Source: Limobrevibacterium gyesilva
GTDB lineage: Bacteria > Pseudomonadota > Alphaproteobacteria > Acetobacterales > Acetobacteraceae
Reading direction: 5' to 3'
NCBI RefSeq assembly: GCF_025989185.1
Contig: NZ_JAPDNT010000007.1
Location: 1-64,000 of the forward strand
Length of the DNA stretch: 64,000 bases
Within the stretch, counting starts at the first letter, position 1. Each line of letters opens with the position of its first letter. Below, in pieces: positions 2,875 through 64,000 of the stretch. The translations under genes were made by a program, and so were the position numbers. The notes below the pieces were generated by a model. It worked only from the letters and a program-made list of their open reading frames with translations. It had not been told where the DNA came from and did no database searches.

Positions 2875-4653
2875 TTGACCGACGACGACCACCCGCCACC
2901 GATCGGGGATTACGCGCTGATCGGAGACGGCACCACGGCGGCGCTGGTCGGCCGGGATGGTGCCATCGACTGGCTATGCTGGCCGCGCTTTGACAGCCCT
3001 GCCTGCTTCGCCGCCCTGCTGGGCACCCCCGGGCATGGCCGATGGCGCATCGCCCCCGCCGATGCGCACCCGCGCATCCATCGCCGCTACCGCGACGGCA
3101 CCCTGGTGCTGGAGACGCTGTTCGCCACTCCGGACGGGGAGGTGGCGCTGGTGGACTTCATGCCGCCTGGCCTGGGCTCGTCCAGCGTGATCCGCCTGGT
3201 GCAGGGCCGCCGGGGGCGAATTCCCATGCGCATGCACCTCCTGCCGCGCTTCGACTACGGCGCGGTCACGCCCTGGATCACCCCGCTGCCCGACGGCTCC
3301 GGCCTGCGCGCCATCGCCGGCCCCGACATGGCCGTGCTGCGCACGACGCTGCCCCTCGACCAGCGCGACGGCGCCACCACGGCCGCGTTCACCATATCCG
3401 CCGGCGAGACCGCCACGTTCGTGCTGACCTACGCCGCAAGCCACCTGCGGCCGCCCGTTGCCGTCGATCCCGCGGCGGCACTCACCGCCACCGAGGTGTT
3501 CTGGTCCGGCTGGTCCACCCGCTGCACCTATCATGGCTGCTATCGCGACGCGGTGCTGCGCTCCCTCGTCACGCTGAAGGCGCTCACCCATGCGCCCACC
3601 GGCGGCATCGTTGCCGCGCCCACGACCTCGCTGCCGGAGCAGCCCGGCGGCAGCCGCAACTGGGACTACCGTTATTGCTGGCTGCGCGATGCGTCGCTGA
3701 CGCTGCAGGCGCTCCTGCACGCCGGCTACACCGAGGAAGCGCGCGCCTGGATCGGCTGGCTGCAGCGCAGCGTCGCCGGACGGCCGGACCAGCTTCGCAT
3801 CCTCTACGGCCTGGCCGGGGAACGGCGCGTTCCCGAATGGGAAGCCGACTGGCTGCCCGGCTACCAGGGGGCACGTCCGGTGCGCATCGGCAACGGCGCT
3901 GCCGGCCAGTTGCAACTCGACGTGTTCGGCGAGGTGTCGGACACGCTGCATCTTGCCCGCACCAGCTTTCTGGGTGGTGACCCGCACGCCTGGGATCTGC
4001 AGCGCCAGCTGGTCGAGCATCTGGAAACCGTCTGGCACCTGCCGGACGAAGGCATCTGGGAGGTGCGCGGCGGCCGCCGGCATTTCACCTTCTCGAAAAT
4101 CATGGCCTGGGTCGCGCTCGACCGCGCCATCGCCAGTGCCGAGACCTTCGCGCTCCCTGCACCGCTGGACCGTTGGCGCGCTCTGCGCACGCGCATCCAC
4201 GACACTGTCTGCGCCGAGGGTTTCGACCGCACGCTGAACAGCTTCACCCAGAGTTTCGGCACCAGGGACCTCGACGCCAGCCTGCTGCTGATCCCGCAGC
4301 TCGGCTTCCTGCCGGCCGGCGATCCGCGTGTGGCCGGCACGATCGCTGCCATCGAGCGCACCCTGCTGACCGACGGGCTGGTGCGCCGCTACGACACCAA
4401 CACCGGCCAGGACGGCCTGCCCCCCGGCGAAGGCGCGTTCCTTGCCTGCAGTTTCTGGCTTGCCGAGGCCATGGCAAGGCAGGGCCGCATGGACGAAGCT
4501 CGCACCCTGTTCGAACGCCTGCTCGCACTCTGCAACGATGTCGGCCTGCTCGCCGAGGAATACGACCCCGCCACCAGAACCCAGCTCGGCAATTTTCCCC
4601 AGGCCCTCACCCATGCCGCCCTGATCCGGGCCGCGCTGGTGCTGGGCACGTAA
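2875..4653 (+). CDS. Glycoside hydrolase family 15 protein (glucoamylase/trehalase-like)
   Basis: A 592-residue cytoplasmic enzyme expected to release glucose from alpha-glucans or trehalose with inversion. The N-terminus has the family opening IGDYALIGDGTTAALVGRDG, then a beta-sandwich domain to about residue 220. The (alpha/alpha)6 barrel follows, with PGGSRNWDYRYCWLRD near residues 259-274 and a C-terminal LLAEEYDP...LGNFPQALTHA, which carries the usual catalytic glutamate region. The start is TTG at 2875, because the family's N-terminal signature begins within ten residues and the next Met is deep inside the domain. No signal peptide is present. Trehalase activity versus glucoamylase activity cannot be separated by eye. 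A 7-bp stem-loop lies just after the stop. Confidence 0.92.
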   Translation: MTDDDHPPPIGDYALIGDGTTAALVGRDGAIDWLCWPRFDSPACFAALLGTPGHGRWRIAPADAHPRIHRRYRDGTLVLETLFATPDGEVALVDFMPPGLGSSSVIRLVQGRRGRIPMRMHLLPRFDYGAVTPWITPLPDGSGLRAIAGPDMAVLRTTLPLDQRDGATTAAFTISAGETATFVLTYAASHLRPPVAVDPAAALTATEVFWSGWSTRCTYHGCYRDAVLRSLVTLKALTHAPTGGIVAAPTTSLPEQPGGSRNWDYRYCWLRDASLTLQALLHAGYTEEARAWIGWLQRSVAGRPDQLRILYGLAGERRVPEWEADWLPGYQGARPVRIGNGAAGQLQLDVFGEVSDTLHLARTSFLGGDPHAWDLQRQLVEHLETVWHLPDEGIWEVRGGRRHFTFSKIMAWVALDRAIASAETFALPAPLDRWRALRTRIHDTVCAEGFDRTLNSFTQSFGTRDLDASLLLIPQLGFLPAGDPRVAGTIAAIERTLLTDGLVRRYDTNTGQDGLPPGEGAFLACSFWLAEAMARQGRMDEARTLFERLLALCNDVGLLAEEYDPATRTQLGNFPQALTHAALIRAALVLGT

Positions 4654-39444: not shown

Positions 39445-40701
39445 ATGAGCAAATCCGGCGACTCGAAGAACACCCTCTACTGCTCGTTCTGCGGCAAGTC
39501 GCAGCATGAAGTCCGGAAGCTGATTGCCGGACCGACCGTGTTCATCTGTGATGAATGCGTCGAATTGTGCATGGACATCATCCGCGAAGAGCACAAGACC
39601 CACCTGGTGAAGTCCCGCGACGGGGTGCCCACGCCCAAGGAGATCTGCAAGGTCCTCGATGACTACGTCATCGGCCAGGCCCATGCGAAGAAGGTCCTGA
39701 GCGTGGCGGTGCACAACCATTACAAGCGGTTGGCGCACGGGGCGAAGAACAACGACATCGAGATCGCGAAGTCCAATATCCTGCTCGTCGGCCCCACCGG
39801 CTCGGGCAAGACGTTGCTGGCGCAGACGCTGGCGCGCATCCTCGACGTGCCCTTCACCATGGCGGACGCCACCACCCTCACCGAGGCCGGCTATGTCGGC
39901 GAGGATGTGGAGAACATCATCCTGAAGCTGCTGCAGGCGGCCGACTACAATGTCGAGCGGGCGCAGCGCGGCATCGTCTATATCGACGAGGTCGACAAGA
40001 TCAGCCGCAAGTCCGACAACCCCTCGATCACCCGCGACGTGAGCGGCGAGGGGGTGCAGCAGGCCCTGCTGAAGATCATGGAAGGCACCGTCGCCTCGGT
40101 GCCGCCGCAGGGCGGGCGAAAGCATCCGCAGCAGGAATTCCTGCAGGTCGACACGACGAACATCCTGTTCATCTGCGGCGGCGCCTTCTCGGGGCTGGAG
40201 AAGATCATCGGCGCCCGCGGCAAGGGCTCGGGCATCGGCTACGGCGCCGAGGTCCGCAGCCCGGACGAGCGGCGCACCGGCGCAATCCTGCGCGAGGTGG
40301 AGCCGGAAGACCTGCTGCGCTTCGGCCTGATCCCCGAGTTCATCGGTCGCCTGCCGGTGGTCGCGACCCTTGAGGACCTGGACGAATCGGCCCTGGTCGA
40401 GATCCTGACCAAGCCGAAGAACGCCCTGGTCAAGCAGTACGGGCGCCTGTTCGAGATGGAAGGCGTCAAGCTGACCTTCACGGAAGATGCGCTGGGATCG
40501 GTGGCCACGCGCGCCATCGCCCGCAAGACCGGCGCGCGCGGTCTGCGGTCGATCATGGAAAGCATCCTGTTGTCCACCATGTTCGACCTGCCGGGCCTGG
40601 ACGGGGTCGAGGAAGTGGTGATCAACCGCGAAGTGGCCGAGGCCCGGTCCAATCCGCTGTTCCTCTACGGCAAGGAGCGGCGGGCCGAGACCAGCGCCTG
40701 A
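39445..40701 (+). CDS. clpX: ATP-dependent Clp protease unfoldase subunit
   Basis: A 418-residue AAA+ hexamer that unfolds substrates into ClpP. An N-terminal zinc finger has [11 protein letters not shown] and [10 protein letters not shown] (four Cys). Walker A is GPTGSGKT, Walker B YIDEVDKI, then [11 protein letters not shown] and the sensor-2 segment [10 protein letters not shown]. An IGF-type ClpP loop (GIGYGAE area) is present. The ATG at 39445 follows ACAGGAG; a GTG six bases upstream is the alternative. Confidence 0.97.
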
Positions 40702-44146: not shown

Positions 44147-44259
44147 TTCGTCGCAGGGCCGGGAAGCGTGTGCCCCGGCCATCTTCTTCCCCGGCATCTT
44201 TCTTCACGCACCGGCTTGACGCCGGTATCGCACCGCTCTACACGCTGCGCCCTGCCGAT

Positions 44260-62176: not shown

Positions 62177-62437
62177 ATGAACCCCGTTACCGGCATAGCC
62201 CTCTACGTCATGATCTGGTGGACGATGCTGTTTGCGGTCCTGCCGTTCGGCACCCGCCCGGTTGCCGACGCTGACGACACCACGGGTTGGCGCGGCGTGC
62301 CGGAACGGCCGCACATGTGGCGCAAGATCCTGGCGACCACGATCCTGACGGCGGTGATTTGGGGGCTGATCTACCTGGTCATCACCAGCGACTGGATCAG
62401 TTTCCGCAACGGCTGGCTGTCTTTGCCCGACGACTAG
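62177..62437 (+). CDS. DUF1467 family membrane protein
   Basis: An 86-residue protein with two helices: TGIALYVMIWWTMLFAVLPF and ILATTILTAVIWGLIYLVI. PFGTRPVADADDTTGWRGVPERP between them is the family signature. It follows rnj by 29 bp and precedes proS by about 500 bp, a position conserved among alphaproteobacteria. The function is unknown. Confidence 0.88.
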   Translation: MNPVTGIALYVMIWWTMLFAVLPFGTRPVADADDTTGWRGVPERPHMWRKILATTILTAVIWGLIYLVITSDWISFRNGWLSLPDD

Positions 62438-62557
62438 GCAGGAATGCTCAATTCTTGAACTTAAAGCTCAAATACGATGCAAACCCTGCCTGGGAATCGC
62501 ATATTTCATCAGAAATGACGCGAATTTTGATGGACGATTGGGCGCTTGAACGCAATC

Positions 62558-62656
62558 ATCACGCCAGGAAGAGGAGTGGTTCCTCGACCTGCCGTGTGAC
62601 TGGCGTTTCCTCCCTAAACTTGGCCCGCTTCGCCGATGGCGTGCGGGCCTTTTTTC
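62558..62656 (+). ncRNA. mmgR: Candidate mmgR/suhB (alpha-r8) family small RNA
   Basis: A 5' stem-loop is closed by ACGCCAG (62561-62567) and CTGGCGT (62600-62606). The single-stranded TTTCCTCCCT (62606-62615) and a terminator hairpin (62622-62649) with a T tract follow. As I recall, TTTCCTCCCT between two hairpins is the conserved feature of the alphaproteobacterial mmgR/suhB RNA, an Hfq-bound regulator linked in Sinorhizobium to nitrogen and polyhydroxybutyrate control. The 5' end is estimated. No promoter is identified with confidence. Confidence 0.6.
62622..62656 (+). terminator. Rho-independent terminator of the sRNA candidate
   Basis: GGCCCGC (62622-62628) pairs with GCGGGCC (62643-62649), with an inner CGCC/GGCG stem, and a TTTTTT tract (62650-62655) follows. 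It is textbook in form. Confidence 0.9.
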
Positions 62657-62938
62657 TATCTACAAGCGTAATCCCTGCAAGTCACGCGCGTTCATGCGTC
62701 CCAGGGCAAATTTCAATGGCTTTATATCAAAAAACTCTTGTGCAACGCACAAAAATAAGCCGCCGCAAACGTTTCGGATGACCCTGCGCCCCGATCTTCA
62801 TCCGGCGTGTGAGGCAACCTGCGGTGGTGCCCGACGAAGGGCGCTGGCGGGTACGGCGCTCGCCCTGTAGGTTCCCGCCTTCGCTGTTCCAGCCCTATCT
62901 TGCCACGCCCCGACCCAAAGAACGGACCCGATCGAACG

Positions 62939-64000
62939 ATGCGCCTCTCCCGCAGCCTGGTGCCGACGCTGAAGGAAACCCCGGCCGAGGCGCAGATCGC
63001 CTCCCATCGCCTCATGTTGCGGGCCGGCCTGGTCCGCCAGACCGCCTCGGGCATCTATGCCTGGCTGCCCGCCGGCTGGCGCGTGCTGCAGAACATCGCC
63101 CAGATCGTGCGCGAGGAGCAGGACGCCTCCGGCGCCCAGGAAATGCTGATGCCGACCATCCAGTCGGCCGAGCTCTGGCGCGCCAGCGGCCGCTACGACG
63201 CCTACGGCCCGGAAATGCTGCGCCTCAAGGATCGCCACGAGCGCGAACTGCTGTACGGGCCCACCAACGAGGAGATGATCACTGAGATCGTCCGCAGCTC
63301 GGTGAAGTCCTACCGCGAATTGCCGCAGAACCTGTACCACATCCAGTGGAAGTTCCGCGACGAGGTGCGCCCCCGCTTCGGCGTCATGCGCGGCCGCGAG
63401 TTCCTGATGAAGGACGCCTACAGCTTCGACCTCGACTATGCCGGCGCCGTGGTCAGCTACCGCAAGATGATGCTGGCCTATATGCGCACCTTCCAGCGCC
63501 TGGGCCTGAAGGCCATCCCCATGGCCGCCGACAGCGGCCCGATCGGCGGCGACCTCAGCCACGAGTTCATCATCCTGGCCCCCACCGGCGAGAGCCAGGT
63601 GTTCTACGACGCGGCATTCGAGGGCATCGACTACACCGGCGGCCAGTTCTCCTTCGACTCCGAAGCCGACCTGCAGCGCTTCCACGAGATGATGACCGGA
63701 AGCTACGCCGCCACCGACGAGAAGCACGACACCGCCGCCTGGGCCAAGGTCGCCGAGAAGCGGGAAGGGCGCGGGATCGAGGTTGGCCACATCTTCTATT
63801 TCGGCACCAAGTACAGCGAGCCCATGGGCCTGACCGTCGCCGGCCCCGACGGCAAGCCGGTCGTCCCGCACATGGGCAGCTACGGCATCGGCGTCTCCCG
63901 CCTGGTCGGCGCGATCATCGAGGCCTCGCACGACGAGGCCGGCATCATCTGGCCCGACAGCGTCGCCCCCTGGCAGGCCGTCATCGTGAACCTCAAGCCC
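62939..64000 (+). CDS. proS: Prolyl-tRNA synthetase (3' end outside window)
   Basis: 354 codons are visible of an expected 430-440, running off the right edge. A class II aminoacyl-tRNA synthetase: [33 protein letters not shown], then the motif 2 region [20 protein letters not shown], and motif 3 [16 protein letters not shown]. The INS editing insertion of long bacterial ProRS is absent; the spacing fits the shorter alphaproteobacterial type. It follows the DUF1467 gene in the usual alphaproteobacterial order, but across a 500-bp gap with its own likely promoter. Confidence 0.95.

Follow-up and report, generated by a model that had tools for sequence, protein, structure and literature searches.

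The gap between a DUF1467 gene and an open reading frame which, from its sequence, we take to be proS raises the question of whether the element lying there is a genuine small RNA gene and, if so, how it relates to other members of its family. Both genes lie at the end of the window, as the whole 64,000-nt stretch of Limobrevibacterium gyesilva DNA under analysis is called here (Table 1). An original prediction, made from the letters alone, had placed an mmgR/suhB-type sRNA at 62558–62656 and had proposed a search with the RF00519 (suhB/mmgR) covariance model as a check. When cmscan is run on the whole 64-kb window, the element scores 43.5 bits over the full model (positions 1–77), 2.5 bits over the gathering score of 41, and three tRNAs are the only other at-threshold Rfam matches. 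Given this match and the orthologues of the same architecture described below, the element is very probably an alpha-r8 (mmgR/suhB) sRNA gene, ordinary in kind. The favoured reading, with a probability of about 0.86, is that of a real, independently transcribed and trans-acting alpha-r8 (MmgR/SisA/suhB) sRNA with its own promoter and a single-stranded seed, which would repress by masking ribosome-binding sites and would not be tied to PHB. Less ordinary are the proS-linked paralogue group to which it belongs and the way PhaR-type sites are divided between the sibling groups.

Table 1. Coordinates of the sRNA gene, its signals and its neighbours within the window
Feature	Coordinates	Strand	Basis or remark
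DUF1467 gene, upstream	62177..62437	+	PF07330, E 3.8e-23
−35 element TGGACG	62531..62536	+	Inferred from conservation; TTGTCC-like in part of the orthologues
−10 element AATCAT	62554..62559	+	Conserved; 17 bp from −35
Predicted sRNA transcript, about 91 nt	62565..62655	+	Start from promoter, end from T run
5' hairpin H1	62566..62590	+	Fold and covariation
RF00519 (suhB/mmgR) covariance-model match	62584..62664	+	43.5 bits, E 1.2e-5
Short hairpin H2	62591..62604	+	Near-invariant loop GUGUGA at 62594–62599
Unpaired anti-Shine-Dalgarno core UUUCCUCCCU	62606..62615	+	Sequence, fold, inside RF00519 match
Rho-independent terminator, GGCCCGC/GCGGGCC stem and six Ts	62622..62655	+	Fold, covariation
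PhaR/AniA-like core TGCAACGCA	62741..62749	.	Inside palindrome TTGTGCAACGCACAA (62736–62750), about 85 bp 3' of the T run
proS start, downstream, continues past window end	62939..64000	+	Class II tRNA synthetase core PF00587

Architecture and ends of the predicted transcript

As is typical of suhB/mmgR RNAs, three stem-loops are predicted, the last being a Rho-independent terminator, and a 10-mer anti-Shine-Dalgarno core lies mostly unpaired ahead of it (mean unpaired probability 0.76 in the predicted fold of the window copy). The original prediction had described two hairpins around the unpaired TTTCCTCCCT, a short one (62591–62604) and a GC-rich one (62622–62649) followed by six Ts (62650–62655), in AT-rich surroundings. 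All of these are found, with a GC content of 40.9% at 62438–62530 and 43.3% at 62657–62760 as compared to 68.5% for the window. The third, 5'-most hairpin had been missed, though the proposed start covers it. The ends of the proposed span are shifted here, as base 62656 is a C and the conserved −35/−10 pair argues for a start near 62565 and a length near 91 nt. A start at 62558 is rejected since the transcript would then include an upstream UCACG able to pair with GUGUGA in the loop, at the expense of the second hairpin; the conserved −10 element also argues against it.

Support for these hairpins comes from comparison among the 24 loci which align with the window throughout. H1 is predicted in all of them when the segment is folded alone. 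In a structure alignment of 23 sequences (A3, with L088 dropped and each row cut back to begin at the predicted stem), two-sided changes are seen in 7 of the 9 H1 pairs and 89.2% of cells are paired, figures biased towards this stem by that trimming. Helix 3, the terminator, has 90.7% of cells paired and two-sided changes in 4 of 11 pairs; H2 is conserved too highly for covariation to show. Over the whole structure, 91.2% of cells pair vs. 84.4% in shuffles and 47–57% with slid partners; none of 500 shuffles equals the observed pairing or covariation score, and two equal the number of further pair types. The segment 62584–62656 has a folding z-score of −2.98, with 1 of 200 dinucleotide shuffles folding as well or better. 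Formation of H2 depends on the exact start because a longer 5' end favours an extended H1: H2 is formed and the core is free in 23 of 24 folds beginning at the base of H1, and H2 is displaced in 9 of 24 once a few extra 5' bases are included. Elsewhere in the class, a broadly similar plan with different H1 and H2 sequences is seen in L079, L102, L103, L105, L107, L126, and L130, the last of which folds with part of the core paired.

The promoter is conserved at single positions. T62531 of the −35 element and positions 2 (A62555) and 6 (T62559) of the −10 element are identical in all 24 aligned loci, and the invariance of the latter two is the pattern expected of a sigma-70-type −10 element. 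The spacing is 18 bp in 8 of the 24 loci, and A/T tracts (62501–62506 and 62524–62527) lie ahead of the −35 element in the window. The −35/−10 pair is not listed by a mechanical consensus promoter scan, nor is 62622–62655 by a simple terminator scan; the stem contains an internal loop.

A conserved paralogue at the DUF1467–proS site

The distribution of RF00519 was surveyed in 60 genomes, comprising the source genome, 35 of the same family and 24 of other families, and 60 hit-centred stretches were fetched besides the loci given by the search itself. Matches at an E-value of 0.1 or better occur in 51 of the 60 genomes and exceed the cut-off in 37; the same search exceeds it in 1 of 14 control genomes. 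Where a locus adjoins DUF1467 or proS, the core almost always lies inside the gap beside these genes (26 of 28 loci, window included; L039 and L091 have no core between the neighbouring genes). The 24 loci that align throughout are the window, L038 (a Rhodospirillales MAG), and 22 others, and 19 of them have DUF1467 upstream and proS downstream with a gap below 700 bases. L040 (Salinarimonas; core without a T run) and L079 were excluded from alignments A1–A3 and from the counts. Identity to the window averages 0.36 upstream, 0.44 over the promoter, 0.50 over H1, 0.84 over 62591–62655, and 0.26 over 62657–62938; conservation ends where the predicted transcript ends. As the exact core TTTCCTCCC was used in the scripts to locate copies, its invariance among the collected copies is partly due to selection, and copies lacking it (e.g., L003, L098–L100) are counted neither with these 24 nor with the 58 other copies. 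The latter are defined by an exact core and a T run among L001–L100 and come from several families, with several copies per genome.

With R1, a covariance model built for the window type, a single match per genome at 65.8–103 bits is found in 24 of the 36 genomes of the family, the source genome counted; the maximum in the 24 other-family genomes is 44.2 bits. The training set includes 22 of the 24 matches; outside it are G001 (78.3 bits) and G031 (65.8 bits). The remaining 12 same-family genomes, some of them incomplete assemblies, yield no window-type match. In a draw of 385 genomes from the class, R1 scores no higher than 50 bits outside the source genome; at most 11 candidates per genome were scored, under strict filters, so that copies may be missed. 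Since alpha-r8-like copies of differing sequence lie beside DUF1467 or proS outside the 24-locus set (L040, L079, L107, L126, L130), the use of this site may predate the family. Among the literature matches listed, as judged by titles and abstract openings, none reports an alpha-r8 copy there; the family survey cited in PMC12559287 may note one. In Sinorhizobium meliloti, the SMc01933–proS gap holds a different sRNA (sra32/smrC9) on the strand opposite proS. The gap before proS seems to house small RNAs in more than one lineage.

Within the source genome, the RF00519 candidates are a copy on C7 (53.8 bits), the window copy (43.5 bits), and a sub-threshold one on C22 (32.2 bits), followed by five at 19 bits or less. 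The C7 copy (44165–44237) adjoins an N-formylglutamate amidohydrolase gene (FGase, PF05013; 44378–45067) on the opposite strand, the neighbourhood in which most alpha-R8 genes, and sisA of Caulobacter, are reported to lie (PMC12559287). The C7 copy is the canonical FGase-linked one, and the window RNA is an additional paralogue. FGase adjoins 28 of the 58 other copies and is absent from the fetched stretches of all 24 window-type loci. The window copy hence lies outside the usual single-copy locus, which is not obligatory: a location away from FGase is no bar to suhB/mmgR membership, because three of the four Caulobacter siblings also lie elsewhere. The C22 candidate (L003 1501–1578; G000 40315–40392) has a CCTCCC-containing linker and a terminator-like end. 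In the relative G031, locus L070 carries tandem alpha-r8 copies at 3061 and 3379, 318 bases apart.

The neighbouring genes suggest readings other than a free-standing sRNA. A cis-acting proS leader or attenuator, whose terminator would halt transcription into proS while the RNA senses a proline or translation signal, would fit the conserved gene order and the 283 bases between the terminator end and the proS start. It is highly improbable and was rejected, as the sRNA still follows DUF1467 in L080 and L094, where no proS is found in roughly 3 kb fetched downstream and the next gene, by eye, is rpmE-like or unrelated, respectively; moreover, an open reading frame of more than 1.1 kb separates the sRNA from proS in L081, and a core of this kind is known to act as a seed in trans. 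The DUF1467 stop lies on the same strand, about 130 nt ahead of the sRNA start, and the RNA could be a suhB-resembling 3' UTR or terminator of that mRNA, or an sRNA processed from it. With a conserved −35/−10 pair in between, the sRNA carried by L081 and L088 without a detected DUF1467 neighbour, and the whole 77-position model matched, there is little to commend this reading, which was likewise rejected.

Two further readings concern the identity of the RNA itself. Its RF00519 score below that of the sibling on C7 and the 12 same-family genomes lacking a window-type match could mean that it merely duplicates the FGase-linked copy, is in decay and has no separate function. However, 24 genera have retained the element, most of them at the same site, and it shows compensatory changes and a loop that hardly varies; such decay has a very slim chance. 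The chance that it belongs to another anti-Shine-Dalgarno group is negligible: the model of the betaproteobacterial toxic small RNAs (RF02278) does align at 62604–62656, but its 21.8 bits (E 0.052) fall well short of the gathering score, 50, and this assignment was rejected. The trans-acting alpha-r8 sRNA remains the preferred reading.

Relation to known alpha-r8 RNAs and the partition of PhaR-type sites

Like the window RNA, MmgR of S. meliloti (alpha-r8, SmelC689/sm8) belongs to suhB/RF00519 and has an anti-Shine-Dalgarno motif and three predicted stem-loops; it is 77 nt long and carries the motif in its first loop (PMC7143759), whereas the window core lies between H2 and the terminator. The S. 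meliloti gene (sm8 = suhB) is located between SMc04042 and SMc04043, not before proS (PMC2573895). In Caulobacter crescentus, the alpha-R8 RNAs SisA–SisD are several siblings in one genome with a common seed and unrelated promoters (PMC12559287), and the same is seen here. SisA is FGase-linked like the C7 copy, whereas the window copy falls in the proS-linked group. AbcR1 and AbcR2 (alpha-r15), named for ABC-transporter mRNAs, show partial suhB homology and CU-rich anti-Shine-Dalgarno motifs (PMC7143759); they differ from the window RNA in their length of 114–120 nt, two such motifs and another locus, and no AbcR-named model appears in the Rfam scans of the window stretch.

The promoter of S. 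meliloti mmgR is bound in gel shifts by PhaR (AniA), a PHB-binding repressor with the motif core YGCRNYGCR (PMC12542648). Between −130 and −10 relative to the core, 50 of the 58 other copies have one or more of these sites, whereas 0.18 per copy would be expected from the background rate of these loci; 20 of the 58, including L014 and L016, have paired sites near −95 and −46. The sites occur upstream of 27 of the 28 FGase-neighboured copies and 23 of the remaining 30, and the C7 copy (L001) has one. In contrast, only 6 of the 24 window-type copies have an upstream site, which is about chance (binomial 0.16), and the two groups differ with a Fisher value of 1.6e-7, both p-values being inflated by shared ancestry. 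The window copy itself has no YGCRNYGCR site in this interval and so lacks a trait of S. meliloti mmgR that does not define the family.

Downstream of the core (+55 to +260), the proportions are reversed, with a site in 20 of the 24 window-type copies vs. 23 of the 58 others. In all 20, one site lies at +119 to +152 from the core start, a range chosen after inspection of the data. L080 and L094 keep the site although proS was not found there; it may be an operator of the promoter of the next gene. In several relatives it overlaps, by eye, a promoter-like TTGCGY-N17 stretch. On the minus strand of the window, the PhaR-like palindrome forms a terminator-like hairpin with a T run (62734–62756); on this strand of L038, the palindrome is not followed by a T run. 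Elsewhere in the source genome, two YGCRNYGCR sites flank a promoter-like stretch ahead of the phasin gene L168, and the phasin gene L169 has none; such pairing of sites is reported for the phasins of S. meliloti (PMC12542648). The two sites at one phasin gene hint that the source genome encodes PhaR.

Another difference between the groups is the sequence GTGTGA ahead of the core, present in 23 of the 24 window-type loci and in none of the 58 other copies. A 12-mer covering it is found in 35 of 60 family genomes, in many at the sRNA gene itself. A tentative and rather doubtful extension would make the proS-linked copies a functional subclass of alpha-r8 in their own right, expressed independently of PhaR where most other collected copies look PhaR-controlled, and with the GUGUGA loop acting as a second seed, as a docking site for a sponge RNA or as a protein site.

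Candidate targets and a possible division of labour

According to the favoured reading, a housekeeping-type promoter would give rise to a transcript of about 91 nt in which two hairpins expose the single-stranded core, and the U-tail of the terminator would provide an Hfq-type 3' end; an hfq gene is present in the source genome. The core could then pair with the purine-rich ribosome-binding sites (AGGGAGGAA) of some mRNAs and repress them, with genes of nutrient uptake and of carbon and nitrogen metabolism among the candidate targets. In Caulobacter, SisA has a 10-mer which corresponds to the window core and represses mRNAs by pairing with the sequence before the start codon, as supported by compensatory mutations; Hfq helps SisA meet its sponge CrfA, which counters SisA (PMC12559287).

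Exact complements of the core ahead of an ATG were sought in the source genome. GGGAGGAAA occurs in 8 places, 7 of them ahead of a gene-sized open reading frame, and AGGGAGGA in 12 places, 8 of them ahead of one of at least 165 amino acids. Backward-read control patterns occur in no place for the 9-mer and in three for the 8-mer, and a control pattern for another Shine-Dalgarno sequence in four, three of these with gene-sized open reading frames; the predictions rest on Shine-Dalgarno complementarity, which is partly met by any strong ribosome site. Among the 15 seed-matched open reading frames, five are ABC-importer-like (L140, L142, L143, L158 and, by weak matches only, L160), and others encode an asparaginase, an amidase-like protein and an acetoacetyl-CoA reductase (TIGR01829, above cut-off). 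Such candidate targets would be common to the window copy and its sibling copy.

The role in carbon or nitrogen storage put forward in the original prediction is only tentative for this copy. The leader of the acetoacetyl-CoA reductase is among the seed-matched ones, but the promoter has none of the PhaR-type sites by which a copy would be linked to PHB metabolism. Both phasin leaders match the core only weakly, and phasin mRNAs were therefore rejected as direct targets; the S. meliloti phasin link is thus not reproduced by seed complementarity here. As its promoter lacks the PhaR-type operators of most other copies, the window copy probably supplies the same kind of seed as its siblings under different conditions, independently of the PHB level.

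Work in Caulobacter has not settled whether carbon metabolism involves every alpha-R8 sibling or just some of them, nor whether they are redundant (PMC12559287). With PhaR-type operators at most of the other copies, none above chance at the proS-linked promoters and the same seed in both groups, this question becomes testable: going by the operator split, one sibling should respond to PHB status and the other should be indifferent to it.
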